DNA of 64,000 nucleotides from Flavobacteriaceae bacterium (GTDB lineage: Bacteria > Bacteroidota > Bacteroidia > Flavobacteriales > Flavobacteriaceae): the NCBI GenBank assembly GCA_018699935.1, contig JABISF010000079.1, forward strand, positions 1 through 64,000, given 5' to 3'. The position numbers and the translations under genes were made by a program. The notes under the pieces were generated by a model. That model was not told the DNA's origin, did no database searches, and worked only from the letters and a program-made list of their open reading frames with translations. Positions 35,491 to 54,171 of the stretch are shown in pieces. Position 1 is the stretch's first letter. Each line of letters starts with the position of its first letter.

Positions 35491-36957
35491 ATGACAAAAA
35501 AACCAACGATAACTACCCTTAAAGCACTGAAAGCCTCAGGCTATCTCCCCAAAAATATTCAACAAGAATTGGGGGACAACCTGAAAGTAAAACTTCAAAA
35601 CGGTCTTTCCACCTTTCAAGGAATTGTAGGATATGAACACACCGTGATTCCAGATTTGGAACGCGCCATCCTATCGGGTCATAACATCAATTTATTAGGG
35701 CTCCGCGGACAAGCCAAAACCCGTTTGGCGCGTTTGATGGTGCAACTGTTGGACGAATGGATACCTGTAGTTGAAGGAAGTGAAATTAATGACGATCCCC
35801 TGCAGCCCATCTCTAGATTTGCCCAAGAATTGATCGCCGAAAAAGGAGATGAAACTCCTGTGGACTGGTTGCATCGAGAGGAACGCTTTTTTGAAAAACT
35901 GGCCACTCCGGATGTAACTGTTGCCGATTTGATTGGAGATGTGGACCCCATCAAAGCGGCCAGTATGAAACTTTCCTATGCCGACGAGCGCGTGATTCAT
36001 TTTGGGATGATTCCGCGGGCGCATCGTTGTATTTTTGTTTTGAACGAACTGCCCGACCTACAGGCACGGATTCAGGTTGCACTATTTTCAATTTTACAGG
36101 AAAAAGAAATTCAAATTCGAGGATTTAAATTGCGGTTGCCATTGGAAATCCAATTTGTATTTACCGCCAATCCGGAAGACTACACCAATCGAGGGAGTAT
36201 CGTAACCCCGTTAAAAGACCGTATCGGATCACAAATTTTAACCCATTACCCACACAACCGCGACTTGGCCAAAGCCATCACCGCTCAGGAATCGCATATT
36301 GATTCCGAACGTTTGGCCAAAATTCAAGTTCCCGAATTGGCAAAAGATATTTTAGAACAAATTGGGTTTGAAGCCCGCAAAAGTGAATTCGTAGATGCCA
36401 AAAGTGGGGTGAGTGCCCGAATGAGTATTACGGCCTTCCAAAACTTAATCAGTACCGCCGAACGTCGGATGTTGATCAACAAAGAAACACACACCAGCCT
36501 GCGCCTTGCCGATTTTCTTGGCGTGATTCCTGCCATCAACGGGAAAATCGAATTGGTCTATGAAGGAGAGCAAGAAGGGGCGGAACAAATTTCCTACCAT
36601 CTTCTTTCTCAGGCTATTAAAACTTTATTTCCCTCCTATTTCCCGAAAATTAAAAAACTAGAAAAGCCGGATGAAGAAGGTCCTTACGACACCCTTTTAG
36701 CTTGGTTTTTTAAAGACAATGAACTCTTTGTTGGAGATCAAACCACGGATGAAGAATACCAAAACAAACTCGACGAAATTCCAGGGGTGGATTCAATTTT
36801 TAGCCAACAACTTCCAAAACTCCAACCAGAAGATCGCTATTTTATGATAGAATTTTTGCTATGGGGCTTGGAGGCACACAAAAAATTAAACAAATACAGA
36901 ACCGTGGAAGGTTTTCAGTTTAAAGATAGTTTGGGAAGCTATATCAGTCGTCTCTAA
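35491..36957 (+). CDS. AAA+ ATPase (Mg-chelatase/MoxR-like)
   Basis: A 488-residue ATPase. The P-loop is GLRGQAKTR at residues 70-78, an unusual form with Ala-Lys-Thr where GKT/S is normal but retaining the invariant Lys-Thr. The Walker B region reads CIFVLNELPDL, with Asn-Glu in place of Asp-Glu. The sensor 1 region VFTANPEDYTNRG and the phrase TPLKDRIGSQI follow, as in ChlI-like ATPases. The C-terminal ~120 residues are specific to this subfamily. It likely remodels a protein complex with the VWA partner. Its stop is 2 bases from the end of the convergent rrf2 frame. Confidence 0.86.
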   Translation: MTKKPTITTLKALKASGYLPKNIQQELGDNLKVKLQNGLSTFQGIVGYEHTVIPDLERAILSGHNINLLGLRGQAKTRLARLMVQLLDEWIPVVEGSEINDDPLQPISRFAQELIAEKGDETPVDWLHREERFFEKLATPDVTVADLIGDVDPIKAASMKLSYADERVIHFGMIPRAHRCIFVLNELPDLQARIQVALFSILQEKEIQIRGFKLRLPLEIQFVFTANPEDYTNRGSIVTPLKDRIGSQILTHYPHNRDLAKAITAQESHIDSERLAKIQVPELAKDILEQIGFEARKSEFVDAKSGVSARMSITAFQNLISTAERRMLINKETHTSLRLADFLGVIPAINGKIELVYEGEQEGAEQISYHLLSQAIKTLFPSYFPKIKKLEKPDEEGPYDTLLAWFFKDNELFVGDQTTDEEYQNKLDEIPGVDSIFSQQLPKLQPEDRYFMIEFLLWGLEAHKKLNKYRTVEGFQFKDSLGSYISRL

Positions 36958-36959
36958 GT

Positions 36960-37376
36960 TCAAAGTTTATTGCGCATACTGGCAATGGTGGAGGAATTTA
37001 AAATTTCAAGAGTCCGGTCGCGCACTTGTTCAAAAACGCCTTTGATGGAGCAAGAAGCTTCGTCGCATTCGTCGCAAGAAGCATAATAATTTTAAGAAAC
37101 GCAGGGCAACAAGGCAATCGGGCCGTCCATCAAACGCATCAATTCTGAAAGATGAATTTCTTCCGGACGTTTTAAAAGACGGTAGCCCCCGGTTTTCCCA
37201 CGGCTGCTTTGTAAAATCTGAAAGTTGCGAAGTTCGCGTAAAATGGTCTCTAAAAATTTTTTGGGAATGCGTTCTTGTTCTGCAATTTCTGAGGAAAATA
37301 TGGGCTTTCCGTCCCGCTCATGATCCGACAAATAAAGCAAAGCCTTGATTGCATATTTACATTTTTTAGAGATCAT
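36960..37376 (-). pseudogene. Rrf2-family regulator interrupted by an in-frame TAA
   Basis: The N-terminal winged helix is complete (MISKKCKYAIKALLYLS, IPKKFLETILRELR, SSRGKTGGYRLLKRPEEI). The frame stops at a TAA at 37092-37094 after LLPCVS, but continues in the same frame for 43 codons to a TGA at 36960-36962: NYYASCDECDEASCSIKGVF, then EQVRDRTLEILNSSTIASM. That continuation is the normal Rrf2/IscR C-terminus with its cysteines (C92, then C101, C104, C109). One base (TTA to TAA) would explain the stop. It is divergent from the sulfate assimilation operon, which it probably controls. A 94-residue truncated protein may still be made. Confidence 0.85.
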
Positions 37377-37390
37377 TGATTTGTTTTTTT

Positions 37391-37398
37391 CAAAGGTA
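37391..37398 (-). promoter_or_regulatory. Candidate -7 box of the rrf2 gene
   Basis: On the minus strand this reads TACCTTTG (TAnnTTTG), 14 bases before the rrf2 start. The palindrome at 37422-37438 falls where the upstream promoter region would be, suggesting autoregulation. Confidence 0.45.
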
Positions 37399-37421: not shown

Positions 37422-37438
37422 CCTATAAACTATATAGG
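37422..37438. promoter_or_regulatory. Palindromic operator between rrf2 and the sulfate assimilation operon
   Basis: CCTATA-N5-TATAGG is a perfect 6+6 inverted repeat in the divergent gap. It lies just upstream of the -33 box of the cys operon and upstream of the rrf2 -7 box, the expected place for a dimeric Rrf2-type regulator. Binding by the adjacent Rrf2 protein is inferred. Confidence 0.6.
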
Positions 37439-37444
37439 GTTTAT

Positions 37445-37475
37445 TTGTTTAATTGGAATAAGTGCTTTAGATTTG
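37445..37475 (+). promoter_or_regulatory. Promoter of the sulfate assimilation operon
   Basis: TTG at 37445-37447 and TAGATTTG at 37468-37475 (TAnnTTTG) are separated by 20 bases. The -7 box ends 22 bases before the DUF2061 start codon. Confidence 0.6.
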
Positions 37476-37497: not shown

Positions 37498-37776
37498 ATG
37501 TTATTAGACATTTTTATCCCAAAGAAAAAAATACAATTTACCGTTGCAAAAGACAAAAAGAAGCTGACAGACAGTGTTTCAAGAAGTGTCCTCAAGGCCA
37601 TCAGTTGGCGCATTGTTGGAACCATGGACACCATGTTGATTGCTTATCTCATAACGGGCACCTTATCCCAAGCCCTATCCATTGGATTTATCGAATGGGG
37701 TACAAAAATGATTCTTTACTTTTTTCACGAACGCGCTTGGAACACACTTCACTGGGGCAGAAAACACAATTCATGA
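37498..37776 (+). CDS. DUF2061 small membrane protein
   Basis: A 92-residue protein with two hydrophobic stretches (about residues 40-58, TMDTMLIAYLITGTLSQAL, and 60-76). The DUF2061 signature is clear: SVLKAISWRIVGTMDT and EWGTKMILYFFHERAWN. Its stop codon overlaps the cysH start by 4 bases. DUF2061 genes are recurrently linked to sulfate assimilation, so a role in that pathway is likely; the molecular function is unknown. Confidence 0.88.
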   Translation: MLLDIFIPKKKIQFTVAKDKKKLTDSVSRSVLKAISWRIVGTMDTMLIAYLITGTLSQALSIGFIEWGTKMILYFFHERAWNTLHWGRKHNS

Positions 37777-38483
37777 AAGCATATATTACCGAACTCAACG
37801 AAAAATTTGAACACAAAAATTTAGCAGAGAGCTTTGCAGCACTCCAAAACGAATCTTTTCAATCCATGTCTTTTTCCACTTCCTTTGGGCAGGAGGATCA
37901 GGTCATCACCGATTTCATTTTGAGAAATGCACTGCCTGTGAATATTTTCACCCTCGACACCGGACGCCTATTCAATGCCACCCATCAAGTGCAAGAGGCC
38001 ACAGAAAAAAAATACAATACCTATATCGACACCTATTTTCCAGAGTCCAACGCAGTGGAAGCATATGTAGCAAAAAATGGAATCAACGGTTTTTATCAAA
38101 GTGTTGAACAGCGGAAATCCTGCTGTACGGTTAGAAAAATAAAACCCTTGCAACGCGCCCTAAAAGACGTTGATTTGTGGATCACCGGGCTGCGTAGTGG
38201 ACAAAGCAGTAACCGCCAACAACTGTCACTTTTTCAATACGACGATGCTTTTGGATTAATCAAATTTAATCCCTTGATTCATTGGAGTCTGGAAGAGGTT
38301 GTCGCCTATCTCGAAAATTTTGAGGTTCCTCAAAATGCCCTTCACAAAGAGGGATTTGTCAGCATAGGCTGCGAACCTTGTACCCGTGCCATTCAACCCG
38401 GAGAGGAAATCCGTGCCGGACGGTGGTGGTGGGAAAACTCCAAAAAAGAATGTGGTCTTCACTTAAACACTACTGCCCAATAA
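37773..38483 (+). CDS. cysH: Phosphoadenylyl/adenylyl-sulfate reductase CysH (APS type)
   Basis: Reduces activated sulfate to sulfite. The start is the ATG overlapping the DUF2061 stop; the frame is open further upstream but runs through the DUF2061 gene. The 236-residue protein has the PP-loop-like region SFSTSFGQEDQ, a Cys pair at 117-118 (KSCCTVRK), a CEPC motif at 200-203 and the catalytic Cys in KKECGLH (227). The CC...CxxC set binds a [4Fe-4S] cluster and indicates that APS, not PAPS, is the substrate. No cysC was seen, in agreement. Confidence 0.93.
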   Translation: MKAYITELNEKFEHKNLAESFAALQNESFQSMSFSTSFGQEDQVITDFILRNALPVNIFTLDTGRLFNATHQVQEATEKKYNTYIDTYFPESNAVEAYVAKNGINGFYQSVEQRKSCCTVRKIKPLQRALKDVDLWITGLRSGQSSNRQQLSLFQYDDAFGLIKFNPLIHWSLEEVVAYLENFEVPQNALHKEGFVSIGCEPCTRAIQPGEEIRAGRWWWENSKKECGLHLNTTAQ

Positions 38484-38487
38484 GCTC

Positions 38488-39375
38488 ATGAATACATTAC
38501 AACAACTCGAAAACGAGGCCATCTACATTATTCGTGAGGTTGCCGGACAATTCAACAAACCTGCCCTTCTTTTTTCGGGAGGAAAAGATTCCATTGTGCT
38601 GTTGCACCTTTGTCATAAAGCCTTTGCTCCTGCCAAAATTCCGTTTCCCTTGGTGCATATCGACACCGGGCATAACTTTCCAGAAACGCTCAGCTTACGA
38701 GACACCTTGGTAGATCGTTATGACGTAAAATTGCATATTGGTTATGTTCAGGACAGCATCAACCGGGGAACTGCTTTGGAAGAAACAGGCAAAAATGCCA
38801 GTAGAAACAGCCTGCAAACCGTCACCCTATTAGAAACCATAGAAACCCTTGAATTGGACGCTTGTATGGGAGGAGCTCGACGCGATGAAGAAAAAGCACG
38901 GGCCAAAGAACGCATCTTTTCCGTACGTGACGATTTCGGACAATGGAATGAAAAATTACAACGTCCCGAAGTGTTCGATATGCTGAATGGAAAAATTCAC
39001 CCCGGTGAAAATGTCCGGGTTTTCCCCATCAGCAATTGGACAGAGTTAGACGTTTGGGAATATATTCGTCAAGAAAAACTGGAAATCCCCTCACTCTATT
39101 TTGCGCATTCGCGCCCCGTATATCAACGTCAAGGGCAATGGATGCCGGTCAATGCCTTTCATCCGGTTGCTTCCAACCAAATCGAAGTGAAAATGGTTCG
39201 GTTTCGCACCGTAGGCGATATGAGTTGTACCGCTGCCGTACTATCAGAAGCCACCGACTTGGATATTATTATTGATGAAATTCGTGATTCAGCCCTGTCA
39301 GAGCGCGGTGCCCGTATGGACGACAAACGCTCCGAGGGTGCCATGGAAGAACGTAAGAAAGTAGGCTATTTTTAA
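38488..39375 (+). CDS. cysD: Sulfate adenylyltransferase subunit 2 (CysD)
   Basis: The catalytic subunit of ATP sulfurylase, making APS from ATP and sulfate. The 295-residue protein has the PP-loop SGGKDS at residues 30-35 and family motifs VHIDTGHNFPE, MGGARRDEEKARAKERIFSV and FPISNWTELDVWEYI, ending RKKVGYF. It starts 4 bases after cysH. Confidence 0.96.
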   Translation: MNTLQQLENEAIYIIREVAGQFNKPALLFSGGKDSIVLLHLCHKAFAPAKIPFPLVHIDTGHNFPETLSLRDTLVDRYDVKLHIGYVQDSINRGTALEETGKNASRNSLQTVTLLETIETLELDACMGGARRDEEKARAKERIFSVRDDFGQWNEKLQRPEVFDMLNGKIHPGENVRVFPISNWTELDVWEYIRQEKLEIPSLYFAHSRPVYQRQGQWMPVNAFHPVASNQIEVKMVRFRTVGDMSCTAAVLSEATDLDIIIDEIRDSALSERGARMDDKRSEGAMEERKKVGYF

Positions 39376-39384
39376 TTTACAGTA

Positions 39385-40617
39385 ATGGATTTATTTAGAA
39401 TTGCAACGGCAGGAAGTGTCGATGATGGGAAAAGTACGTTGATTGGTCGTTTATTGTACGAAACAAATTCCCTAAAAGAAGACCAACTGCAGTATATTGA
39501 GCAAAAAAGCCATTCCAAAGGTTTGTCGTATCGCGACTTTTCTTTGGCAACCGATGGGTTGCTCACAGAACGGGAACAAGGGATTACCATCGATGTTTCT
39601 CATATCTATTTCAAAACTCAAAAGCGCCGTTTTATCATCGCGGACAGTCCGGGACATATCGAATATACACGAAATATGGTGACCGGAGCCTCCAACGCCA
39701 ATGCTGCCATCATTCTTTTGGACGCCCGTAAAGGTGTGGTCGAGCAAACCCGTCGTCATTTGTATATCACTCAATTATTGGGAATCCAACAACTTATTTT
39801 TGCGATCAATAAAATGGATTTGGTGGACTACGATCAAAAAGTTTTTAATCAAATAAAATCGGAGATTGAACCTTTACTCAATAAACCAAAAGACCAAGCA
39901 CACTATCTCCCCATTTCAGCACTTAAAGGAGATAACTTGATTACGCCAAGCAAAACCATGGACTGGTATTCCGGCAAGAGTTTAATCGAAATAATTGAAA
40001 CGCTCCCCTTGGAAGTAAACACCAATGCTTTGGGAATTATGCAAGTGCAATATGTGATTCGCCCCCAATTGGAAAATCTCCACGACTACCGAGGATTTGC
40101 CGGGAAAATAAAAAGTGGGACGTTCAAGCCAGGGGATCAAATCACTGTTTTTCCTTCCGGACAAAAAACGCATATTAAAGCGATTGAACGCTATGGGGAA
40201 CCCTTGGAGGAAGTACTTGAAAACGATAATGCTGCTTTTCTCCTCGCCGACGAAGTTGACGCTTCTCGAGGGTCGGTATTCGTTCGTCAGTCCGAAGCAC
40301 TGCTCCCCCAAAAAAAGATTAACGCTACTGTCTGCTGGATGCAAAACGAACAATTGGAAGCCGGAAAAAAATATTGGTTGCAACAAGGAGTGCAAACCGT
40401 TTTGACAAAAGTAGATGCCATCCATTCCAAAGTAGATTTGGGCAATGGCGCACAGTTGTCCGGTCAGGCACTTCATTTGAATGATATTGGCGAAACTGCT
40501 TTGACCTTGGCACAACCCATCCTTGCGGAGGCCTATCACCATAACAAAGCTTTGGGCGCATTTATCCTCATCGATCAAAAAACGTTCAATACAGCCGGCG
40601 TTGGATTTATACATTAA
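39385..40617 (+). CDS. cysN: Sulfate adenylyltransferase subunit 1 (CysN GTPase)
   Basis: The GTPase subunit that drives APS synthesis. The 410-residue EF-Tu-like protein has G1 GSVDDGKST at residues 10-18, the switch region EREQGITIDVSHIYF, G3 DSPGHIEYTRNM and G4 NKMD. Beta-barrel domains follow. It is shorter than the enterobacterial CysN and has no fused APS kinase domain. It starts 9 bases after cysD. Confidence 0.96.
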   Translation: MDLFRIATAGSVDDGKSTLIGRLLYETNSLKEDQLQYIEQKSHSKGLSYRDFSLATDGLLTEREQGITIDVSHIYFKTQKRRFIIADSPGHIEYTRNMVTGASNANAAIILLDARKGVVEQTRRHLYITQLLGIQQLIFAINKMDLVDYDQKVFNQIKSEIEPLLNKPKDQAHYLPISALKGDNLITPSKTMDWYSGKSLIEIIETLPLEVNTNALGIMQVQYVIRPQLENLHDYRGFAGKIKSGTFKPGDQITVFPSGQKTHIKAIERYGEPLEEVLENDNAAFLLADEVDASRGSVFVRQSEALLPQKKINATVCWMQNEQLEAGKKYWLQQGVQTVLTKVDAIHSKVDLGNGAQLSGQALHLNDIGETALTLAQPILAEAYHHNKALGAFILIDQKTFNTAGVGFIH

Positions 40618-40676: not shown

Positions 40677-42752
40677 ATGAAGAGTTTTCGAACAGAAATA
40701 GAGGATCCCATAGTGGCAAAAGACATTATCGATTTGGAGAAAAAAATACATGCCTTCCAAAACAATACCCTCGATAGTGAAAAATTCCGAAGTCTCCGAT
40801 TGGCTAGAGGCGTCTATGGTCAACGCCAAACTGGGGTGCAAATGATCCGTATTAAATTACCCATGGGACGTTTTACCGCCAAACAATTACGCCGTATGGC
40901 GAAAGTATCGGACACCTATTCCAACGGAAATTTGCACATCACCACCCGTCAAGACATACAGTTGCACCATGTTTCTTTAGACCATACTCCGCAGCTGTGG
41001 GCAGCCCTTGAAAAAGACAAAATCACCTTGAGAGAAGCCTGCGGAAATACAATCCGCAATGTCACCGCTTCCATTTGGTCCGGGATTGACCCACAAGAAG
41101 CTTTTGATCCCACCCCCTATGCCCATGCTTTTTTTGAATATTTTTTGAGAAATCCGTTGTGTCAAGATTTAGGTCGTAAAATAAAAGTAGCCTTTTCATC
41201 CAGTGCCCAGGACGAGACCATGACCTTTATCCACGATCTCGGATTTATTCCAGTAATTGAAAATAATAAAAAAGGGTTTCGAGTAGTTTTGGGCGGTGGA
41301 ATTGGTGCTCAACCCGAGGCGGCTCATGAAGTTTATTCGTTTTTACCCACCCACCAACTCCTACCCTTTAGCGAGGCTGTAATTCGCGTTTTTGAGAATT
41401 ATGGAGAACGCAATCGTCGCAACAAAGCCCGAATGAAATTTTTGGTCAAAGAAATGGGAATTGACCTTTTTTTGGAAAAGGTGAAAATCGCTCAAAAAGG
41501 ATTACCGAGTAGCCTGCCTATTTTGGAAAAAAAGCGAACCCTGCAATTTTCAAACAACCTCCCTACGAGTCTTGAAGTTCAAACCGACGAAGCTTATAAA
41601 AACTGGATGATTACCAATACTTTCCCCCAAAAACAAGAGGGATTTGTAGCCGTAGGAATAGCCGTACCAAGAGGGGATCTCAGCAGTCAAGACGCGCGTC
41701 AACTGGCCACCCTTATCGAAACCTTCACCGGAGATGACAATCGTTTTACCATTGGTCAAAGCATCCTCCTTCGCGATGTAAAAAAAGAAGGGTTACCCGC
41801 TTTATACGCCGCCTTGAAAGCATTGAATTTTCACCGAATCGGTTTTCACAAACTCAACGATATAGTGGCTTGTCCCGGAACAGACACCTGTAATTTGGGA
41901 ATTGCCAGCAGCATGGGCTTAGCCAAAGTACTGCAAGAAGTGATTGAAACCGAATACCAAGCACTGATTCTCCAACACCACATCAACATCAAAATCAGTG
42001 GTTGTATGAATGCCTGCGGACAACACACCATCGCCCACATTGGATTTCAAGGGATGACCTTGAAAAAAGACAATTTAATTGCACCCGCCACCCAGGTGCT
42101 TTTGGGAGGTGGAGAAATGAAAGATGGGAAAGGGCGTTTTGCCGATAAAGTTTTAAAAGTTCCCGCCAAAAGAACGCCGGCGGTATTGCGTTGGTTGCTG
42201 GATGATTTTCAAAATACGCGCCTCGAACATGAAGATTTTTTGAGGTATTACGACCGAAAAACGTCAGCTTATTTTTATCAAAATTTAAAGCATTTTTCCA
42301 GCGTCGACGACCTCCAAGCGGATGACTATATCGATTGGGGCAATTCCGAAAAATATGAAAAAGCGATTGGAATTGGAGAATGTGCCGGAGTCACCATCGA
42401 TTTGATTCAGACTTTGTTGTTTGACGCCAAAGAATCTTTGGAATGGTCGCATTCTTCGCACCAGCACGGTGCTTGTAAGGACGCTTTTTATCACGCCTAC
42501 AATTCTTTAATCCGAACCGCAAAAGCCCTATTGACCACCAAAGCCGCCAAAACCAACAGTCATGCGTCTATAGTAGCGCACTTTGATGAATATTTTCCTG
42601 AATTTGAAGAGGTTTTTGGAAATAGCTTTCAGCGTGCCATAGAAAAATACAAAGAAGCCGATCCTACCTCAGTCAATGTGCTTCAATTCATTCACTGGAC
42701 CCAAACGGTTCTCAATTGGGCGGAACAAGCCACCACTGCACATGCACAATAA
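40677..42752 (+). CDS. Sirohaem sulfite reductase (nitrite/sulfite reductase family) with C-terminal helical extension
   Basis: Six-electron reduction of sulfite to sulfide. The 691-residue protein has two ferredoxin-like repeats (RGVYGQRQTGVQMIRIKLPM, NLHITTRQDIQLHHV) and the cluster/sirohaem motif CPGTDTCNLG (Cys near 399 and 405) with CMNACG (Cys near 443 and 447). After about residue 555 comes an extra ~135-residue helical region (GACKDAFYHAYNSLIRTAKA) of HEPN-like appearance, absent from typical SiR/NiR. Context favours sulfite over nitrite as substrate. Its stop overlaps the cobA start by 11 bases. Confidence 0.9.
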   Translation: MKSFRTEIEDPIVAKDIIDLEKKIHAFQNNTLDSEKFRSLRLARGVYGQRQTGVQMIRIKLPMGRFTAKQLRRMAKVSDTYSNGNLHITTRQDIQLHHVSLDHTPQLWAALEKDKITLREACGNTIRNVTASIWSGIDPQEAFDPTPYAHAFFEYFLRNPLCQDLGRKIKVAFSSSAQDETMTFIHDLGFIPVIENNKKGFRVVLGGGIGAQPEAAHEVYSFLPTHQLLPFSEAVIRVFENYGERNRRNKARMKFLVKEMGIDLFLEKVKIAQKGLPSSLPILEKKRTLQFSNNLPTSLEVQTDEAYKNWMITNTFPQKQEGFVAVGIAVPRGDLSSQDARQLATLIETFTGDDNRFTIGQSILLRDVKKEGLPALYAALKALNFHRIGFHKLNDIVACPGTDTCNLGIASSMGLAKVLQEVIETEYQALILQHHINIKISGCMNACGQHTIAHIGFQGMTLKKDNLIAPATQVLLGGGEMKDGKGRFADKVLKVPAKRTPAVLRWLLDDFQNTRLEHEDFLRYYDRKTSAYFYQNLKHFSSVDDLQADDYIDWGNSEKYEKAIGIGECAGVTIDLIQTLLFDAKESLEWSHSSHQHGACKDAFYHAYNSLIRTAKALLTTKAAKTNSHASIVAHFDEYFPEFEEVFGNSFQRAIEKYKEADPTSVNVLQFIHWTQTVLNWAEQATTAHAQ

Positions 42753-43503
42753 AGGTCAAATCACATTAGTGGGTGCCGGTCCGGGCGACCCCGAATTAAT
42801 CACCCTAAAAGGAGTGAATGCGTTGCAAAAAGCAGATGTTATTTTTTACGACGCATTGATTTCACCTTTGCTTTTGGAACATAATAGAACCGCTGAAAAA
42901 ATCTTTGTTGGAAAACGCAGCGGGCAACATCAAACCTCGCAGGAGGACATCAATCGATGGATCGTTTCCTATGCCCTGCAGGATAAAAATGTGGTACGTC
43001 TTAAAGGTGGAGATCCCCTAGTTTTTGGTCGTGCTTGTGAAGAATTAAACAGCGCAAAAGAAAACGGAATTCCGACTTTCATTGTGCCGGGAATTTCTTC
43101 CTTTTCGGGGATTGCTGCGCAACATCAAATCCCGATAACCAAACGCCAAGAACACCAAAGTTTTTGGGTCGTAACAGGACATACCGCAGCGGGTAAATTT
43201 TCCGAAGATTTGTATTGGGCAGCGCAATCCAGTGCCACGGTCATTGTTTTGATGGGGGTGCGTCATTTGGCAAAAATTGTCGCTCTTTTTCAAGTGACCA
43301 AAACAGGCGATTATCCGGTTGCCATTGTCCAAAACGGCACCACCAAAGCCGAACGCAGTTTGGTTGCCACGCTGGACACCATAGAAGAAGAAGTGACCCT
43401 TCATGTAATTGAAAACCCGGCAGTGCTCTTTTTTGGTCCTGCTGTGACCGACGCTGTAACCCACTTCCGCAATCCTGTAAACGCTTTGAAATGCCTGATT
43501 TAA
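42742..43503 (+). CDS. cobA: Uroporphyrinogen-III C-methyltransferase
   Basis: Makes precorrin-2 for sirohaem. The 253-residue protein starts at MHNKGQITLVG, overlapping the sulfite reductase gene. SAM-methyltransferase motifs are clear: LVGAGPGDPELITLKG, VIFYDALIS, VGKRSGQH, VVRLKGGDPLVFGR and VPGISSFSGIAA. It overlaps the next sirohaem gene by 13 bases. In some bacteria it is fused to that activity as CysG; here the two are separate. Confidence 0.95.
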   Translation: MHNKGQITLVGAGPGDPELITLKGVNALQKADVIFYDALISPLLLEHNRTAEKIFVGKRSGQHQTSQEDINRWIVSYALQDKNVVRLKGGDPLVFGRACEELNSAKENGIPTFIVPGISSFSGIAAQHQIPITKRQEHQSFWVVTGHTAAGKFSEDLYWAAQSSATVIVLMGVRHLAKIVALFQVTKTGDYPVAIVQNGTTKAERSLVATLDTIEEEVTLHVIENPAVLFFGPAVTDAVTHFRNPVNALKCLI

Positions 43504-44066
43504 ATCCCTTATATCCCGTTTTCTTAAAAACTTCTGAGCTGCAAATTTTGATTGTTGGCGGAGGAAATGTTGCCTTGGAAAAATTGACCTTTTTGTTTAA
43601 ATCCAGTCCCGAATCGCGAGTGCATTTGGTGACCCCTTGGCTGCGAAAAGAAACTCGCGAATTTATTCAAGACAAAAATGTCACCATAGCACTGAAGCCC
43701 TACGAACCCTCCGATTTGTCGGGTAAACACTTGATCATTGCCACCACAGATGATCCAGAAGTAAACCTACAAGTACAACGAGACTGCCGCCAAAAAGGGG
43801 TTTTGATCAATGTTGCCGATTGTCCTGATTTATGTGATTTTTATATGGGGGGAATCGTGACCAAAGGGAATTTAAAAATTGCTATTTCAACCAATGGCAA
43901 GTCCCCCACCCTTGCCAAACGAATGCGTCAATGGCTGGAAGCTTTACTCCCCGATGAAATGGATGATTTATTAACGACCCTACGCGACTACAGAACAACT
44001 TTAAAGGGTGATTTTGCGTACAAAGTGAAGACCATGAACGCGGTCACTAAATCTTTACTCTCTTAA
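43491..44066 (+). CDS. Precorrin-2 dehydrogenase / sirohydrochlorin ferrochelatase (CysG N-terminal type)
   Basis: A 191-residue protein starting MPDLNPLYPVFL. It has the NAD-binding motif LIVGGGNVALEKLTFL and family motifs IIATTDDPEVNLQVQRDC, INVADCPDLCDFYMGGIV and ISTNGKSPTLAKRMRQWLE. With CobA it completes sirohaem synthesis for the sulfite reductase two genes upstream. Whether it performs both oxidation and iron insertion cannot be told from the sequence. Confidence 0.93.
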   Translation: MPDLNPLYPVFLKTSELQILIVGGGNVALEKLTFLFKSSPESRVHLVTPWLRKETREFIQDKNVTIALKPYEPSDLSGKHLIIATTDDPEVNLQVQRDCRQKGVLINVADCPDLCDFYMGGIVTKGNLKIAISTNGKSPTLAKRMRQWLEALLPDEMDDLLTTLRDYRTTLKGDFAYKVKTMNAVTKSLLS

Positions 44067-44073
44067 TAACACT

Positions 44074-45105
44074 ATGATACAAACTGACATTCTGGTCATT
44101 GGTGCGGGTCCTGTGGGGCTCTTCACTATTTTTGAAGCCGGATTGATGCAATTGCATTGCCACGTGATTGACGCCATCCCTCAAGTGGGCGGACAACTCA
44201 AAGAAATTTATCCCAAAAAACCCATTTACGACATTCCCGGATTTCCAAGTGTCTTGGCGGGTGATTTAATCGATAATTTGGAAGCACAAGCCGCACCTTT
44301 CAAACCCGGATACACCCTCGGAGAACGTGCCGAAACCATTGAAAAAGAGGCCGATGGCAGCTTTTTGGTAACCACCAACGAAGGGACACTTCACCGCGCT
44401 CCGGTGGTGATAATCGCCGGTGGCTTGGGGAGTTTTGAGCCGCGCAAACCCCAATTGGCGGAACTGGAATTTTTCGAGAAAAAAGGCGTCGATTTTATGG
44501 TCAAAGACCCCTCGCTTTACCTCAACAAAAAGGTAGTGATTTCTGGTGGCGGGGATTCTGCCTTGGACTGGGCGCTCTATTTTGCAGCTCACAGCTCCAA
44601 AAAAATTCATGTCGTTCATCGTTCCGATAGTTTTAGAGCGCACAAAGATTCCGTTCAAAAACTATTTGAATTGCAAGAAACAGGACAGCTCGAAATACAT
44701 ACCCACGCCGAAGTAAGCCGACTGCAAGGGGGTGAAAAATTGGAAGCCTTGGAAATCAAAACCAAAGAGGACTCCATCACGCTGCCCGTAGATTATTGGC
44801 TTCCCCTTTTTGGGCTTTCCCCCAAACTCGGCCCCATAGGAAATTGGGGATTGGAAATTGACAAAAACGCCATAGTGGTTGACAACACCCTCGACTATCA
44901 GACATGTATTCCCGGAATTTTTGCCGTTGGAGATGTCAATACCTATCCCGGCAAGCTCAAATTAATACTCTGCGGTTTTCACGAAGCGACCATGGCGGTC
45001 CAAACCGCTTATAAAATCATTCATCCTGAAAAACGCTATACCATGAAATATACCACTGTTCAGGGCGTAAAAGGCTTTGAAACACTGGAAACCACAGCCG
45101 TATAA
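44074..45105 (+). CDS. Ferredoxin-NADP+ reductase, thioredoxin-reductase-like
   Basis: A 343-residue FAD/NAD(P)H flavoprotein. The FAD motif is GAGPVG at residues 10-15 and the NADPH motif ISGGGDSALDWAL lies near 155. The second FAD motif is GIFAVGDVNTYPG. The redox-active CxxC of true thioredoxin reductase is absent, as in YumC-type ferredoxin-NADP reductases. As the last gene of the sulfur operon, 7 bases downstream, it probably supplies reduced ferredoxin to the sulfite reductase. Confidence 0.9.
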   Translation: MIQTDILVIGAGPVGLFTIFEAGLMQLHCHVIDAIPQVGGQLKEIYPKKPIYDIPGFPSVLAGDLIDNLEAQAAPFKPGYTLGERAETIEKEADGSFLVTTNEGTLHRAPVVIIAGGLGSFEPRKPQLAELEFFEKKGVDFMVKDPSLYLNKKVVISGGGDSALDWALYFAAHSSKKIHVVHRSDSFRAHKDSVQKLFELQETGQLEIHTHAEVSRLQGGEKLEALEIKTKEDSITLPVDYWLPLFGLSPKLGPIGNWGLEIDKNAIVVDNTLDYQTCIPGIFAVGDVNTYPGKLKLILCGFHEATMAVQTAYKIIHPEKRYTMKYTTVQGVKGFETLETTAV

Positions 45106-45191: not shown

Positions 45192-47864
45192 ATGCGCACG
45201 TTACTATTTACTCTTTGCCTATTCCTACAATTCAGTTTTGGCTATGGAATTCCTACGGAAGTGCATCAACTCACCTTGGAAGGAAAAACAAATCCACTTG
45301 GCGTCGGAACTCCAACACCCGCTTTTTCATGGAAAATAAAATCGGATAAAGAAGGGTTAACACAAACCCATTACCGCATTATTGTTGGAACCAACGAAGA
45401 TTTGTCAAGCGATGCATGGGTGTGGGACTCGGGCAAAAGAGCCACGGATCAGAGCCTTTATATCCCCTATGCTGGGAAAGCACTCCAAGCCAATGCTACT
45501 TATTTTTGGAAAGTGGAAGTATGGGATAATCTTTCAAAAAAATCGAGTGTGAGCAAAACAGCGCATTGGTCGGTGGGTCTACTTCAAGCCGAAGACTGGA
45601 AAGCGCAGTGGATTACTCAAACAAAAGTGGATAATGAAAGCCGAAAAAGTCCTTACTTCAAAACAGACTTTAGCAGCTCAAAAAAAATTAAACGCGCCTA
45701 TCTGCACATCAGTGCGCAAGGAATGTACGAAGCCTATTTGAATGGAGAAAAAGTAGGGAATGCCTTCCTCACCCCCGGTTGGACGGCCTATAACGAACGG
45801 ATTCAATACCAAACCTTTGAGGTGAGTCAACAATTAAAAAGTCAAAATGCTTTGGGAGTGGTTCTAGGCAGTGGATGGCATCGAGGCTATTTGGCGTGGT
45901 CCAATAATAAAAATTCATACGGAGATGATGTGTCCTTTATTGCGCAATTAATGATTGAATATGAAGATGGCACCAGCCAATCAATTCTTTCGGATGAAAA
46001 TTGGGAATATACCCATGGAGCAATTGTTGATTCTGAATTATATGACGGTGAATTTTATAATGCCTTAGTGGAGCAAAATTGGTGTGTCTATGGCAGTAGT
46101 AGTCCCAACGCAAAAAAAGCGATTCCAGCTGCCGATCTAAAAAGTCGTTTGGTGGCCACCGACAATGGTTTAGTCACCGCACATGAAGTATTTAAACCCA
46201 AAGCCTTCATCACCACCCCTTCCGGTGCCAAGGTGCTGGATTTCGGACAAAATTTAGTGGGCTGGGTGCGCTTTTCTAATGTGGGTCAAAAAGGCGATAC
46301 GCTCCGAATTTTTCATGCCGAAATTTTGGATAAATCGGGTGAATTTTACACCGAAAACCTCCGCGAAGCTGCACAATTAAACACCTTTATCCTCAACGAA
46401 GATAAAGACAAAGTATATCATCCCCACTTTACTTTTCAAGGGTTTCGCTACATTAAAATTGAGGGTTTGGAGGATATTCCTCTAGATCAATTTGAGGCGG
46501 TGGCCTTGTATTCCGATATGGAGGTTTCGGGAACCTTCTCCTCCTCGGATCCGCTCATCAATCAATTGCAGCACAATATCCAATGGGGTCAAAAAGGAAA
46601 CTTTTTGGACATCCCCACCGATTGTCCCCAACGGGATGAACGTTTGGGATGGACCGGAGATGCGCAGGCTTTCTACAATACCGCTGCGTTCAACATGAAC
46701 GTAAAAACTTTTTTTGAAAAATGGTTGATCGACCTAAGCCTCGATCAACGCGAAGACGGTTCGGTTCCCTTTGTCATTCCCAATGTTTTGGGTGAAAATG
46801 CCAGTGGATCCGCAGGTTGGGCCGATGCAGCAACCATTATTCCCTACAACAATTATCTCCAATACGGCGATTTGCGCAGTTTGGAAGCGCAATATCCCAG
46901 TATGCAAAAATGGGTCAACTATATGTACCAAAAAAGTGAAGCAGGCAAATATGCCGGTGACTTCCATTTTGGTGACTGGTTGTTCTATCGACCCAATGAT
47001 GACAACGATGGTCGTGCGGCTGTAACCAGCAAAGAACTCATCGCGCAATGTTTTTATGCACGCTCAACAGAAATTTTAAGAAACACCGCCACTTTGTTAG
47101 GAAAGCAAGAGGAAGCCGCCGAATACAATCAACGGCTGGAACAAATTAAAAAAGTTTTTTTAGAAGAATTTGCTACTGCCAACGGTCGCCTGATTTCGGA
47201 TACACAAACCGCCTATGTGTTAGCCTTGGCCTTTGATATGTTTCCCGCTTCCCTTCGTCAACAAGCTGCGGATCGGCTGGTAAAAAACATCAAAAGTTAT
47301 GGAACACACCTCACCACTGGCTTTTTGGGAACCCCCTATTTGTGTCATGTCCTTTCGGAAAATGGGTATAATGATGTCGCGGTGGAATTGTTGTTGCAAA
47401 AAACCTACCCCTCTTGGCTCTATCCCATCACCCAAGGGGCAACCACCATTTGGGAACGTTGGGACGGCATCAAACAAGACGGAAGCACCCAAACTCCTTC
47501 GATGAATTCCTACAACCATTATGCCTATGGAGCCATCGGGGAATGGATGTACCGTCAACTCCTGGGGATTCAAGTCGATCCAGAATTTCCGGGCTACAAG
47601 CACTTCAAGATTCAACCGCTTTTTGACCCCGCCTTTGATTATATCAACGGTACTTTGGAATCGCCCTATGGAAACATCGCCGTGGATTGGAAACAAGATG
47701 ACAACAGTATTACCCTCGCTTTGAACATTCCCGGAAATTCGAGTGCAAGCCTAGCCTTGCCTGACAACTATCGCTGGGAGCGCAAACAAAAAAATAAATG
47801 GGTCGCCATTGAACCGAAAGCGACACTGCTGGCCGGGAGCTATGATTTACGCGCCTTAAAATAG
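45192..47864 (+). CDS. GH78 alpha-L-rhamnosidase
   Basis: Hydrolyses terminal alpha-L-rhamnose from glycans. The 890-residue secreted protein (signal peptide MRTLLFTLCLFLQFSFG) has N-terminal beta domains (TPAFSWKIKSDKEGLTQTHY, KAQWIT), the rhamnosidase N domain (GMYEAYLNGEKVGNAFLTPGW) and the (alpha/alpha)6 catalytic domain. The GH78 catalytic region DCPQRDERLGWTGD lies near residue 477, and the second acid is in ATTIWERWDG (Glu near 754). No lipobox is seen, so it is likely periplasmic. Its 3' end overlaps rhaM on the other strand by 9 bases. Confidence 0.95.
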   Translation: MRTLLFTLCLFLQFSFGYGIPTEVHQLTLEGKTNPLGVGTPTPAFSWKIKSDKEGLTQTHYRIIVGTNEDLSSDAWVWDSGKRATDQSLYIPYAGKALQANATYFWKVEVWDNLSKKSSVSKTAHWSVGLLQAEDWKAQWITQTKVDNESRKSPYFKTDFSSSKKIKRAYLHISAQGMYEAYLNGEKVGNAFLTPGWTAYNERIQYQTFEVSQQLKSQNALGVVLGSGWHRGYLAWSNNKNSYGDDVSFIAQLMIEYEDGTSQSILSDENWEYTHGAIVDSELYDGEFYNALVEQNWCVYGSSSPNAKKAIPAADLKSRLVATDNGLVTAHEVFKPKAFITTPSGAKVLDFGQNLVGWVRFSNVGQKGDTLRIFHAEILDKSGEFYTENLREAAQLNTFILNEDKDKVYHPHFTFQGFRYIKIEGLEDIPLDQFEAVALYSDMEVSGTFSSSDPLINQLQHNIQWGQKGNFLDIPTDCPQRDERLGWTGDAQAFYNTAAFNMNVKTFFEKWLIDLSLDQREDGSVPFVIPNVLGENASGSAGWADAATIIPYNNYLQYGDLRSLEAQYPSMQKWVNYMYQKSEAGKYAGDFHFGDWLFYRPNDDNDGRAAVTSKELIAQCFYARSTEILRNTATLLGKQEEAAEYNQRLEQIKKVFLEEFATANGRLISDTQTAYVLALAFDMFPASLRQQAADRLVKNIKSYGTHLTTGFLGTPYLCHVLSENGYNDVAVELLLQKTYPSWLYPITQGATTIWERWDGIKQDGSTQTPSMNSYNHYAYGAIGEWMYRQLLGIQVDPEFPGYKHFKIQPLFDPAFDYINGTLESPYGNIAVDWKQDDNSITLALNIPGNSSASLALPDNYRWERKQKNKWVAIEPKATLLAGSYDLRALK

Positions 47865-48182
47865 GTCTTTAGGGAAGGTAAAAACTTCCTTCAAAGGCTC
47901 AACGATGGGCTCGTTGTTGGGATGGGTTTCCATCAAATCTGCCATGGCTGCCCACCAACGCTGCATGATTTCGGTGTTTTTCAGTTGATCGCTGGTGTGG
48001 TCGGGAAGCAACTCCTGGAAGGCAAATAGCTTCCCCGTGGCGGCATCTAAAAAGATACTGTAATTCAGAATTCCATGGGCATGAAGCAAGGCTTTCAATT
48101 CAGGCCAAAGGGCATCGTGCCGCTCTTGGTAAACTTGTTCCTTTCCTTTTTTCAGTTGCATGGTAAAAGCGTTTCGAATCAT
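47856..48182 (-). CDS. rhaM: L-rhamnose mutarotase RhaM
   Basis: Interconverts alpha- and beta-L-rhamnopyranose. The 108-residue dimeric ferredoxin-like protein has the family pattern MQLKKGKEQVYQERHDALWP, GILNYSIFLD, and MQRWWAAMADLME with the active-site region. It is the only leftward gene in this part of the cluster and is divergent from the GH88 gene, sharing the operator-bearing gap. Its presence supports free rhamnose as a product of the cluster. Confidence 0.93.
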   Translation of the reverse strand: MIRNAFTMQLKKGKEQVYQERHDALWPELKALLHAHGILNYSIFLDAATGKLFAFQELLPDHTSDQLKNTEIMQRWWAAMADLMETHPNNEPIVEPLKEVFTFPKDLF

Positions 48183-48320
48183 CTTTTTTTTTCTAAATTG
48201 TTTTTTCGTCTTTTTTCTTGCATCGATTTACTTAAAAATGAGTGGTGCAAGGATCAAATTGGGTTAAAATCTACTAAAAAACCAAATCTGACTTGGGTAT
48301 AAAAATAAAATAATTAAATT

Positions 48321-48334
48321 CGTTAACGTTAACG
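48321..48334. promoter_or_regulatory. LacI-type palindromic operator between rhaM and the GH88 gene
   Basis: CGTTAACGTTAACG is a perfect 14-bp palindrome with the central CG typical of LacI/GalR operators. It lies 26 bases upstream of the GH88 start codon in a divergent gap (48183-48359), otherwise AT-rich. No other full copy was noticed in the window. The cognate regulator is not adjacent. Confidence 0.65.
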
Positions 48335-48359
48335 GAATTTAAAAAACACACTTCATTTC

Positions 48360-49748
48360 ATGATTAAAATTAATGAAACCCTCACGCCTAATGATCTCCA
48401 AACTGCTTTGCAACGCTTTTGGGAATTGTCGGGTGAAAAAATAAAAGACATCGCCGAAAACTACGATTCCAATCAAGGGGCACCGGTTTTTACGGTAAAC
48501 GGAAAATATTCTACGCGGGGTTGGACCGAATGGACCCACGGTTTCCAATTTGGATCGGCGGTGCTGCAATTCGACGCTACGGGAGATGATTTTTTCCTCC
48601 AGATGGGACGTCAACAAACCTTAGACTTTATGGCACCCCATGTGAGTCATAATGGTGTCCACGATCATGGATTTAATAATTTTAGCACCTATGGCAATTT
48701 GCTCCGCCTGATGCATGAAGGAAAAATTCCGCATAATTCTTGGGAACAATCCTTTTATGAATTGGCCATAAAAATATCCGGAGCTGTTCAAGCTTCCCGA
48801 TGGACATCGCTCCCTGAAGGGGGATTCATCCATTCATTCAACGGTCCGCACTCGCTTTTTGTAGACACCATTCGCTCCTGTCGCATCTTGGTTGCCAGTC
48901 ATTTATTGGGACATCAATTTCATTCGGAGGGCGATAAAAAAATATCACTTTTAGAACGTGCCGTCCAACACATAACGGCTACTGCAAAATACAGTGTCTA
49001 TTACGGAGAAGGAAGAGATCGTTACGACCTTTGGGGAAGAACGGCGCATGAAAGTATTTTCAACATCAACGATGGTCAATTCCGTTGTCCCAACTCCCAA
49101 CAAGGCTATACCGGCTTTTCTACGTGGACACGCGGCTTGGCTTGGGCGATGGTCGGTTTTCCGGAAGAGTTGGAGGCTTTTGATAGTATCCCAGAAGCAG
49201 CCTTTGAAAATTTTGGCGGTAAAACGGCAATTATGAATACGATGCTGAAAGCTGCAAAAGCGACTTGTGATTTTTACATCGAGCACACTCCCACTTGTGG
49301 CGTTCCTTATTGGGATACAGGAGCACCCAATCTGCACCGTCTAGAAGATTATTTGGATCGTCCCGCCGACCCCTACAACGACTGGGAACCGGTGGATGCT
49401 TCCGCTGCTGCCATTGGAGCCCAAGGCCTCCTAAGGCTAGGAAACTTTCTAGCCGCAAAGGGCGATGCCGAAGCAAAAAAATACCGGCAAGCCGGACTTA
49501 CTGTCATGAAAACCTTACTGGATACGCCCTATTTGAGCGAGGATAAAAACCATCAAGGAATTTTGCTTCACAGCATCTATCACCAACCCAATGGATGGGA
49601 CAATGTGCCCCAAGGACAAAAAATTGCTTGCGAAGAATCCTCCATGTGGGGAGATTATCACATGCGAGAATCGGCTCTTTATATTGAAAAATTAATCAAA
49701 GCGGAACCCTATTACAAATTTGATAACTGCATTGCAACCAAACACTAA
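48360..49748 (+). CDS. GH88-family unsaturated uronyl hydrolase
   Basis: GH88 enzymes release 4,5-unsaturated uronate from lyase-produced oligosaccharides by vinyl-ether hydration. The 462-residue protein lacks a signal peptide and should act in the cytoplasm. Catalytic-type aspartates are visible at D102 (HDHGFNNFSTYGNLL) and D169 (FVDTIRSCRIL), and the family tract TWTRGLAWAMVGF follows. It is somewhat longer than most GH88 proteins and divergent in detail, so a related activity is possible. It heads the rightward catabolic operon behind the palindromic operator. Confidence 0.85.
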   Translation: MIKINETLTPNDLQTALQRFWELSGEKIKDIAENYDSNQGAPVFTVNGKYSTRGWTEWTHGFQFGSAVLQFDATGDDFFLQMGRQQTLDFMAPHVSHNGVHDHGFNNFSTYGNLLRLMHEGKIPHNSWEQSFYELAIKISGAVQASRWTSLPEGGFIHSFNGPHSLFVDTIRSCRILVASHLLGHQFHSEGDKKISLLERAVQHITATAKYSVYYGEGRDRYDLWGRTAHESIFNINDGQFRCPNSQQGYTGFSTWTRGLAWAMVGFPEELEAFDSIPEAAFENFGGKTAIMNTMLKAAKATCDFYIEHTPTCGVPYWDTGAPNLHRLEDYLDRPADPYNDWEPVDASAAAIGAQGLLRLGNFLAAKGDAEAKKYRQAGLTVMKTLLDTPYLSEDKNHQGILLHSIYHQPNGWDNVPQGQKIACEESSMWGDYHMRESALYIEKLIKAEPYYKFDNCIATKH

Positions 49749-49749
49749 A

Positions 49750-50580
49750 ATGGCTACTCCCCTAGACAATCTCGACCGCCTTTGCGTGCACACCCAAACC
49801 AACAAACCTTGGGATTTAAAAAGCTGTATTGAGGCCTATGCCAAGGCAGGCATCCGAGGCATCTCCATCTGGAGGCATCTCCTCGAAGATCAAGATTTGG
49901 AGGCCGTTCGCCAACTTTTATCAGCGCGGAACATGCAGGTGGTTGCTCTGGTGCGCGGGGGTTTTTTTCCCAGCACCGATCCAGAAAAAAGACAGCACGC
50001 ACTGGAAGACAATCGATTAGCGATTGCACAAGCAGCGGCGATTGGGGCACCCCAAGTAGTGCTGGTATGTGGTGCCGATCCGGGGCAATCCTTAGAAACC
50101 TCACGGAAACAAATCCAAGAGGGAATCACTGCCCTGCTTTCCGAGGCAGCGACTGCCGGGGTCAAACTCGCCATAGAACCTTTGCATCCCATGTATGCCG
50201 GAGACAAGTCTGCTGTAACCACGCTGGCCGAAGCCAATACCATTGCCGAAAATATCAATTCCCCTTGGGTGGGTGTTGCGCTGGATGTCTATCATTTGTG
50301 GTGGGATCAGGATTTGGAAAGCGAAATCAAACGCTGCGGGAAAAACGGCAATATCTTTGCTTTTCACGTCTGCGACTGGAATGTCCCAACGGTGGACATG
50401 CTCACCGATCGGGGTCTGATGGGCGAGGGCTGTATTGATGTAAAACAAATTAGAGGATGGGTAGAAGGCTCCGGATTTGACGGATTTATAGAAGTGGAAG
50501 TCTTTTCAGAACGCCACTGGAATTCCGATCAAAATCAATATTTAGAAAAAATAAAAACTGCATATTTAAAACATACTTAA
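49750..50580 (+). CDS. Sugar phosphate isomerase/epimerase-like TIM barrel (cytoplasmic)
   Basis: A 276-residue protein of the AP endonuclease 2/xylose isomerase-like fold. The start is the ATG of MATPLDNLDRLCVHT, one base after the GH88 stop codon. Metal-site motifs are visible: LAIEPLHPMYAGDKSA (Glu), VGVALDVYHLWWDQDL (Asp-His), FAFHVCDWN (His) and FIEVEVFSE (Glu). The adjacent Gfo/Idh/MocA gene suggests that it acts on an oxidised or keto sugar. The substrate is not identifiable. Confidence 0.85.
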   Translation: MATPLDNLDRLCVHTQTNKPWDLKSCIEAYAKAGIRGISIWRHLLEDQDLEAVRQLLSARNMQVVALVRGGFFPSTDPEKRQHALEDNRLAIAQAAAIGAPQVVLVCGADPGQSLETSRKQIQEGITALLSEAATAGVKLAIEPLHPMYAGDKSAVTTLAEANTIAENINSPWVGVALDVYHLWWDQDLESEIKRCGKNGNIFAFHVCDWNVPTVDMLTDRGLMGEGCIDVKQIRGWVEGSGFDGFIEVEVFSERHWNSDQNQYLEKIKTAYLKHT

Positions 50581-50589
50581 ACCAAAAAA

Positions 50590-51747
50590 ATGAAAGTACA
50601 TCCTATTGGAATTATAATGAATGGTGTGACCGGACGCATGGGCACCAACCAACACTTGATTCGATCCATCGACGCCATCATCAAACAAGGAGGAGTAGCC
50701 ATCAATGACTCAGAGGTGATTATGCCCGAAGTGGTTTTGGTGGGAAGAAATGAAAATAAATTAAAGCAATTGATCGCCACCACTTCAGTGACCGAATGGA
50801 CTACGGACTTGGACAGTGTGCTGAAGGACGACAAATACGCCATCTATTTCGACGCCCAAACTACCGGTAGAAGATCCGATGCCATCAAAAAAGCCGTGGC
50901 TGCGGGCAAACATATTTATTGCGAAAAACCGGTCGCTACCTCTACCGATATCGCACTAGAGCTCTATCGGATCTGTAAAGATGCTGGCATCAAACACGGG
51001 GTGGTTCAGGACAAATTGTGGTTGCCGGGGATGTTAAAATTAAAACGTCTCATGGAAAACGATTTCTTTGGAGAGATTCTCTCCGTTCGGGGGGATTTTG
51101 GTTATTGGGTTTTTGAAGGACACAGTGTTCCTGCACAACGACCCAGTTGGAACTATCGCAAGGAAGACGATGGAGGGATCATCGTTGACATGCTCTGCCA
51201 TTGGCGCTATGTTTTGGATAATATTTTTGGCCCTGTAAAAGGTGTTTTCTGCTTGGGTGCTACCCATATTTCGGAACGTATTGATGAACAAGGCAAACCC
51301 TATAAATGCACGGCCGATGATGCTGCCTATGCCACCTTTGAGTTGGAAGGGGGGATTGTAGCCCAATTTAATTCTTCTTGGACGACACGTGTTCGTCGGG
51401 ACGATTTACTCACTTTGCATGTGGATGGCACCAAGGGTTCTGCCGTGGCTGGCTTGAGAGAATGTTGGACGCAATCCTATGGAAACACTCCCAAACCCGT
51501 TTGGAATCCCGACATTCCCAATCCCATCAATTTTCAGGAGGGTTGGTCTAAAATGCCCGAACAAGAGCATTTTGACAATGCTTTTAAAGTACAATGGGAA
51601 TTATTCCTCAAGCACGTGGTACTGGACACTCCCTTCCCTTGGGATATGTTGGCAGGTGCTCGGGGCGTTCAGCTTGCCGAAAAAGGACTGGAAAGCTGGG
51701 AGAAAAAAACATGGATTAACATCCCCGACCTAAACCCAAATCAATGA
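50590..51747 (+). CDS. Gfo/Idh/MocA family oxidoreductase
   Basis: A 385-residue NAD(P)-dependent sugar dehydrogenase-like protein. The N-terminal Rossmann motif is GVTGRMG instead of the usual GxGxxG, preceded by HPIGIIMN. The hallmark EKP is present in [18 protein letters not shown], and the C-terminal domain has [15 protein letters not shown]. No signal peptide is seen. It overlaps the SDR gene by 4 bases. Together with the preceding TIM-barrel gene it may oxidise a glycoside or sugar at one hydroxyl. Confidence 0.88.
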
Positions 51748-52514: not shown

Positions 52515-52523
52515 ATTATCCTT

Positions 52524-52775
52524 ATGAAAAACTGGTCTGAAAAAACGTTGAAAAGGATTTGGAAGGGCATCCTCGTGGCGGTCCTTCTTTTGATTGTATT
52601 CACTTTTTCTCCTTGGGTCTTGGTAAAAGGAAAAATTGACCCCATCCTATTCAGTATGCCCTATCATTTGTGGGTAAGTATATTGAGTACCATTTTGCTG
52701 GTAGTATTTACGGGCATCGGGGGTATGGTTTTTTACCATTTAAAATTAAAAACCGATCCAAACGCTAATTTATAG
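52524..52775 (+). CDS. Small two-helix membrane protein, transporter partner
   Basis: An 83-residue protein with two membrane segments (about residues 13-33, GILVAVLLLIVFTFSPWVLV, and 48-72). It sits 4 bases before a sodium:solute symporter gene. Such small DUF3311-like proteins commonly precede SSS transporters and may stabilise them. I cannot assign the family with certainty. Confidence 0.7.
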   Translation: MKNWSEKTLKRIWKGILVAVLLLIVFTFSPWVLVKGKIDPILFSMPYHLWVSILSTILLVVFTGIGGMVFYHLKLKTDPNANL

Positions 52776-52779
52776 ACCC

Positions 52780-54168: not shown

Positions 54169-54171
54169 GTT

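Follow-up and report, generated by a model that had tools for sequence, protein, structure and literature searches.

A single in-frame TAA in an Rrf2-family regulator gene facing the sulfate-assimilation operon of a Flavobacteriaceae bacterium

The regulator gene and its neighbourhood

The window, i.e. the whole stretch of 64,000 nucleotides that was analysed, belongs to a draft genome of a Flavobacteriaceae bacterium (85 contigs, 88% complete). It carries a minus-strand gene of the Rrf2 family, interrupted by a stop codon and placed between an AAA-type ATPase gene and a set of genes for sulfate assimilation. The features of the locus are as follows:

35491–36957, plus strand: AAA-type ATPase gene, the left flank
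36960–37376, minus strand: interrupted gene for an Rrf2-family regulator, 139 codons including the two stops (Pfam PF02082 and 64 homologue rows)
36963–37091, minus strand: tail past the stop, 43 codons with C101, C104, C109 and the long C-terminal helix (homologue alignment and model)
37092–37094, minus strand: in-frame TAA, codon 95 (frame reading; the column is stop-free in the 64 homologue rows, 62 of them distinct)
37095–37376, minus strand: N-terminal part, 94 codons with the first helix, the winged helix-turn-helix and C92 (ORF and model)
37391–37398, minus strand: TACCTTTG, candidate -7 box of the promoter of the regulator gene, pattern TAnnTTTG (position and consensus)
37422–37438, no strand: palindrome-like CCTATAAACTATATAGG in the gap between the divergent genes, predicted operator (17/20 of the relatives' consensus)
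37444–37447, plus strand: TTTG, candidate -33 box for the promoter of the cys operon (position)
37468–37475, plus strand: TAGATTTG, candidate -7 box for the promoter of the cys operon, pattern TAnnTTTG (consensus from a passage of PMC9723704)
37498–37776, plus strand: gene for a DUF2061 membrane protein, opening the cys operon (Pfam PF09834)
37773–38483, plus strand: cysH, PAPS/APS reductase (Pfam PF01507)
38488–39375, plus strand: cysD (NCBIfam CysD, 396.8 vs 396.6 bits)
39385–40617, plus strand: cysN (NCBIfam CysN, 462.7 vs 336.1 bits)
40677–42752, plus strand: sulfite/nitrite reductase-type hemoprotein, probable assimilatory sulfite reductase (NirA/CysI-type matches, all under the equivalog cut-offs)
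42676–43503, plus strand: uroporphyrinogen-III C-methyltransferase, siroheme (NCBIfam cobA_cysG_Cterm); the ORF as listed overlaps the preceding gene, its true start being probably further in
43491–44066, plus strand: siroheme synthase N-terminal type (NCBIfam cysG_Nterm)
44074–45105, plus strand: pyridine-nucleotide oxidoreductase, thioredoxin reductase-like (Pfam Pyr_redox_2)

The regulator gene starts with an ATG at 37376 and is closed by the TAA at 37094–37092, which leaves an N-terminal ORF of 94 aa ending in LLPCVS (the residues before the TAA are MDGPIALLPCVS). In the same frame a further 43 codons (NYYASCDECDEASCSIKGVFEQVRDRTLEILNSSTIASMRNKL) are open up to a TGA at 36962–36960. With an X at the stop, the whole frame matches the Pfam profile PF02082 (Rrf2) at 113 bits against a cut-off of 30 (E 1.1e-32), covering profile positions 1–129 of 132, and it is also above the cut-off of NCBIfam TIGR00738 (rrf2_super), with 101 bits. 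An earlier note, made from the sequence of the window, had described this gene as an Rrf2-type regulator split by a single TAA, with 43 codons and three cysteines between that stop and the TGA, beside a sulfate-assimilation operon; on all these points our analysis agrees with it.

At the local base composition, 43 open codons would occur by chance with a probability of about 8%. The open tail nevertheless goes beyond chance, because it aligns to the C-termini of Rrf2 homologues: identities run from 65 to 69% and E values from 1e-16 to 6e-15 (computed at nominal database size) for the 12 top matches shown. At E <= 1e-3 it is matched by 58 of the 64 homologue rows. Head and tail align to the homologues without a gap around the TAA, which points to a substitution and not a slip. 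The possibility that the tail is a separate C-terminal peptide was considered and rejected, as by eye it has no in-frame ATG, GTG or TTG ahead of its cysteines.

The regulator gene is divergent from the DUF2061, cysH, cysD, cysN, sulfite reductase and siroheme genes, all of which are open. Where compared, the neighbours (vWA, AAA, DUF2061, cysH, cysD, cysN, the cysG-type gene and the oxidoreductase) also have the length of their counterparts in relatives, and the reductase of the window has 691 aa vs 695 aa in locus L212 of another family genome. Directly after the sulfur module, at 45192–56910, inspection by eye gave ORFs that resemble rhamnosidase-type and other sugar-degradation genes, accompanied by oxidoreductases, a sodium symporter and a gene similar to sugar isomerases/epimerases, i.e. 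a possible polysaccharide-use cluster.

The arrangement recurs in relatives. Among the 20 closest homologue loci (L014–L033), 13 face the same DUF2061-cysH operon and six a gene similar to OAH/OAS sulfhydrylases (named by NCBIfam in L022, L029 and L031, and by likeness in the other three), and one begins at a contig edge. A search for a virus-borne copy of the regulator returned six stretches fitting a pattern, none of which encodes a relative.

Homologues and the age of the stop

The homologue set consisted of 64 rows, i.e. 38 of 39 homologue loci and 26 of 29 new family loci (L052 from the former, and L116, L122 and L124 from the latter, were left out of the count); 62 rows are distinct, since the pairs L015/L114 and L032/L115 are identical. 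The proteins have 134–153 residues, save for L019 and L023 (113 and 117 aa), which are cut by contig ends. When this comparison, proposed as a check in the earlier note, was carried out, the column of the stop was found to hold Leu in 58 of the 64 rows (56 of the 62 distinct ones), Gln in two, Tyr in two, Ile in one and His in one. None of the 64 rows has a stop at the codon-95 column, and none ends naturally at LLPCVS or is as short as 94 residues. All six Leu codons are used in this column by the relatives. As TTA is the sole Leu codon that lies one substitution away from TAA, a TTA to TAA change, which the note had also put forward, is the simplest route to the interrupted gene. If the stop is real, the gene would be a pseudogene by a single nonsense mutation: its homologues are open, its tail is preserved and an important part of the product is lost.

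The tail shows how old the stop may be. In pairwise comparisons with 18 intact close homologues, in which synonymous sites are near saturation, the window gene has a tail/head dN ratio of 1.60; among the 18 intact homologues themselves this ratio ranges from 1.38 to 1.95 (mean 1.62, SD 0.17). A ratio like that of intact homologues implies that the tail was normally constrained for almost all of its history. The stop would therefore be recent if it is real, or else an error in the draft assembly.

A tail conserved as well as in intact homologues is also what would be expected if the TAA were read through or suppressed, so that the full-length protein is still made. We consider this extremely improbable. 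A young mutation accounts for the tail equally well, a stop kept at the same place is absent from all 64 rows, and although the 88% complete draft gave 32 tRNA matches, none of the 30 loci scanned among them shows a TTA anticodon.

A more serious alternative, although a doubtful one, is that the stop is not present in the organism, being either an error of the draft consensus or a variant carried by a minority of a mixed population and taken up into that consensus. The draft state of the genome, with its many contigs, speaks for this, as do the undecayed tail, which is exactly what an error would leave, and the fact that a scan for odd spots is biased toward errors. On the other side, the change is a gap-free substitution in a neighbourhood where the genes compared are full length. 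We lean to a real mutation, because the compared neighbour genes are open and of normal length and because relatives lose the regulator gene altogether (see below), which makes a real loss plausible.

Predicted product and operator

The AlphaFold model of the intact homologue L014, built with 25 sequences, has a mean pLDDT of 84.8. Residues 4–83 form the first helix and the winged helix-turn-helix, all of it before residue 94. The cysteine loop, at about 91–110, is poorly predicted (pLDDT block means of 53 and 63), and a long C-terminal helix follows at 110–128, past the stop in the window gene. Among PDB structures CymR of B. subtilis is the top match (TM 0.81), and all matches at E <= 0.001 are Rrf2-type: CymR, RsrR, IscR, NsrR and others titled as putative regulators or DNA-binding proteins.

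Four cysteines, C92, C101, C104 and C109, are invariant in all 64 rows (62 distinct), with the spacing C-x8-C-x2-C-x4-C. The TAA comes right after C92, so that C101, C104, C109 and the long helix all lie beyond it. The IscR-like cysteine site that the earlier note had read in the tail thus has to be replaced by a four-cysteine pattern, the first member of which stands ahead of the stop.

The same note had suggested that the sensor was lost and the DNA-binding half kept. This is true in part: the winged helix is complete and three cysteines are gone, but the long C-terminal helix, which only the ancestral gene possesses and the window product does not, has been lost with them. The long C-terminal helix of Rrf2 proteins makes the dimer, and it is as dimers that these proteins bind palindromes. 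With this helix gone, the 94-residue piece is unlikely to hold a palindrome. In NsrR the dimer interface is described, in a passage of PMC5411485, as hydrophobic, with the cluster located at the interface.

It could still be argued that the 94-residue protein is kept and works as a DNA-binding half without a sensor, constitutive or dominant-negative. It has the complete winged-helix part, passes the NCBIfam rrf2_super cut-off on its own (80.8 vs 73.3 bits), and its predicted operator and promoter boxes are retained. We nevertheless regard such a protein as very unlikely, given the missing helix and the fact that none of the 64 homologue rows is naturally that short. Nor was an intact partner seen over which the product could be dominant: the search of the own genome (88% complete draft) gave one Rrf2 match at E <= 0.001, i.e. 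the interrupted gene itself, and no intact second copy. Since the tail takes the dimer helix with it, a working or dominant-negative DNA binder, as envisaged in the note, does not follow from the sequence, and judging from the model plain loss of function would be likelier than a constitutive or dominant-negative half-protein.

The predicted operator lies between the two divergent genes. The relatives' consensus of this palindrome is CCTATAAA-N-TTTATAGG, and none of 200 shuffles of the window's upstream stretch reached the score of the window site. In the whole 2.17 Mb draft the palindrome occurs once at <=1 mismatch, at 37422–37438, and the reversed control pattern does not occur. Scored at >=15/20, it stands upstream of the regulator gene in the window and in 25 homologue rows with 60–82% identity over the head, i.e. 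in 26 of the 65 stretches compared, of which L025 and L047 offered too little upstream sequence. As these loci also served to draw the consensus by eye, the count is descriptive. The palindrome lies upstream of the Rrf2 gene, between it and the sulfur genes, in 19 of the loci L014–L033. It is conserved in the nearest relatives and missing in the more distant homologues, among them L034–L037 (62–66% identity) and L038, L039 and L121 (about 60%). Because the regulator gene stands back to back with the cys operon across a palindrome found only once in the draft, its product is probably the local regulator of cysteine synthesis.

The TTTG at 37444–37447, a possible -33 box, stands just downstream of the predicted operator. 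Measured from the predicted boxes, the centre of the palindrome falls at about -50 for the cys operon and about -44 for the regulator gene. This position would serve an activator as well as a repressor, and the regulator's effect may have either sign. Constitutive regulation, which the earlier note had named as a possibility, hinges on exactly this choice. The TTTG and the TAGATTTG at 37468 fit the flavobacterial promoter, whose TAnnTTTG element is placed at -12 to -5 in a passage of PMC9723704.

Based on these observations, we think it probable that the cysteine-synthesis (sulfate-assimilation) operon has recently lost its local regulator to a nonsense mutation. The intact regulator, as suggested by its relatives, would sit as a dimer on the single palindrome that separates its gene from the divergent operon, and would read the cysteine, sulfur or redox state through the four conserved cysteines. 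The stop would take away three of these together with the long helix that joins the subunits, leaving a piece of 94 residues that most likely neither dimerises nor holds the operator. The cys operon, with its genes open and its predicted promoter boxes present, would then run at an unregulated level.

Loss of regulator and pathway in relatives, and comparison with known systems

Matches to Rrf2 at E <= 0.001 occur in 253 of 299 family genomes, weak paralogues included. Within the genus, 35 of 36 mates have none at this threshold, and in the remaining one the match is partial and lies where a contig ends. That match (L008 1501–1708, at the end of contig C50 of G033) comprises about 53 N-terminal residues and continues in frame into an oxidoreductase-like C-terminal part (GIFAIGDVNTYPEKLKLI, by eye), which resembles the oxidoreductase after the cys operon; it may be the scar of a deletion, or a join made in assembly where the contig ends.

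As for the pathway itself, a sulfite reductase match was obtained in one of 38 genus genomes (54 to 98% complete), namely the window genome, and in none of the seven that are at least 90% complete. For cysN, the matches listed for the 27 genus-mates searched are elongation-factor-like only. The flanks are shared: 21 of the 27 mates searched have the AAA gene, and the VWA gene occurs in 31 of 37. Six mates were read at this place. In G001 and G003 only about 60 bases separate the AAA gene from the oxidoreductase whose window counterpart lies at 44074, so that these shared neighbours have nothing of the regulator-cys-siroheme module between them. G012, G023, G026 and G033 have other genes after the AAA gene.

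The weight of this comparison depends on the placement of the contig. In the AAA-gene tree it forms a branch of its own outside the genus, which makes the genus comparison weaker than it appears. The IF-2 of the same contig scores highest with genus-mates (77–82% identity in 15 of them); its identity to two other genera is 81–82%, in one case over a partial match, so that the genus-mates are nearer by a small margin only. Contamination or mis-binning was rejected on the strength of the IF-2 scores, though the AAA-gene tree disagrees, and the contig likely belongs to the genus. Among the IF-2 sequences, that of G103 (L202) carries TAA three times within a short, charged stretch at its N-terminus, followed by 804 open residues, which may reflect a frame slip or a shorter natural start.

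Elsewhere in the family cys genes occur with no regulator beside them. The single-contig genomes G183 (L212) and G279 (L213), 99–100% complete, have a DUF2061-cysH-like-cysD-cysN order behind a PLP enzyme gene, whose product in L212 matches O-succinylhomoserine sulfhydrylase; L212 has a reductase gene and L213 none in the stretch read, and both genomes give only weak Rrf2 matches (2.4e-9 and 8.5e-9). L211 (G275) carries cysH-cysD-cysN with no regulator within the 13 kb read and lacks the usual order. L214 (G083) was not counted as a regulator-less operon, as cysH, cysN and a reductase were not seen around its cysD. No operator match at >=14/20 was found in L211 and L212, and L213 has one 14/20 site, seen on both strands; these three loci lie far from the clade with the palindrome, so this comparison proves little.

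Judging from these loci, the family seems to have seen both kinds of loss, that of the regulator as well as that of the module, and some other members with an unregulated operon seem to have lost the regulator before. Regulator decay of this kind is an ordinary form of gene loss. As the genus has mostly lost the module, the sulfate-assimilation pathway may itself be on its way out. Although this is a tentative suggestion, the window could show a pathway being dismantled from its regulator onwards, the operon still kept, its dedicated regulator just lost and most others in the genus without the operon, and at the same time reveal a four-cysteine Rrf2 subfamily which, with its predicted operator, would control cysteine synthesis. 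Taken alone, the case is a single broken regulator in a single draft genome. If real, it represents a lineage with probably unregulated sulfate assimilation, in keeping with the loss of the pathway in its small-genome genus. Its lasting by-product is a conserved four-cysteine Rrf2 protein and a palindrome facing cysteine genes, a pair that can be tested.

Sulfur-gene loss is known from other reduced aquatic genomes, e.g. the streamlined Methylophilaceae, for which a passage of PMC6794327 reports reduced sulfur metabolism. The present genus resembles them, with drafts of 1.0–2.2 Mb and the reductase unmatched in 37 of 38 genomes. The difference is that in the window the operon is still open and the regulator alone is broken.

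The regulator shares with the Rrf2 superfamily the profile match over its length and, for the intact homologue, a predicted fold as in solved members; it differs in that the window gene stops at codon 95 of about 138. It is best called, from its sequence, an uncharacterised Rrf2 subfamily of Bacteroidota, and no study of a four-cysteine Rrf2 subfamily was found among titles and abstract openings of the open literature, curated regulon databases being outside the scope of the search. With IscR and NsrR it shares the position of the cysteines in the loop ahead of the long helix. However, the cluster cysteines given in a passage of PMC5411485 (C93, C99 and C105 in NsrR; C92, C98 and C104 in IscR) follow a three-cysteine C-x5-C-x5-C spacing that C92, C101, C104 and C109 do not have, and the window frame is far below the equivalog cut-offs of IscR and NsrR (58.4 vs 207.55 and 39 vs 182 bits, respectively). 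CymR, the regulator of cysteine metabolism in Firmicutes, is the best fold match (2y75), and the position of the window gene beside sulfur amino-acid genes means that its job may be similar. Here, too, the frame is below the equivalog cut-off (NF047409, 64.7 vs 195 bits), and CymR, which according to a passage of PMC9338935 binds no iron-sulfur cluster, contrasts with the four invariant cysteines of the subfamily described here.
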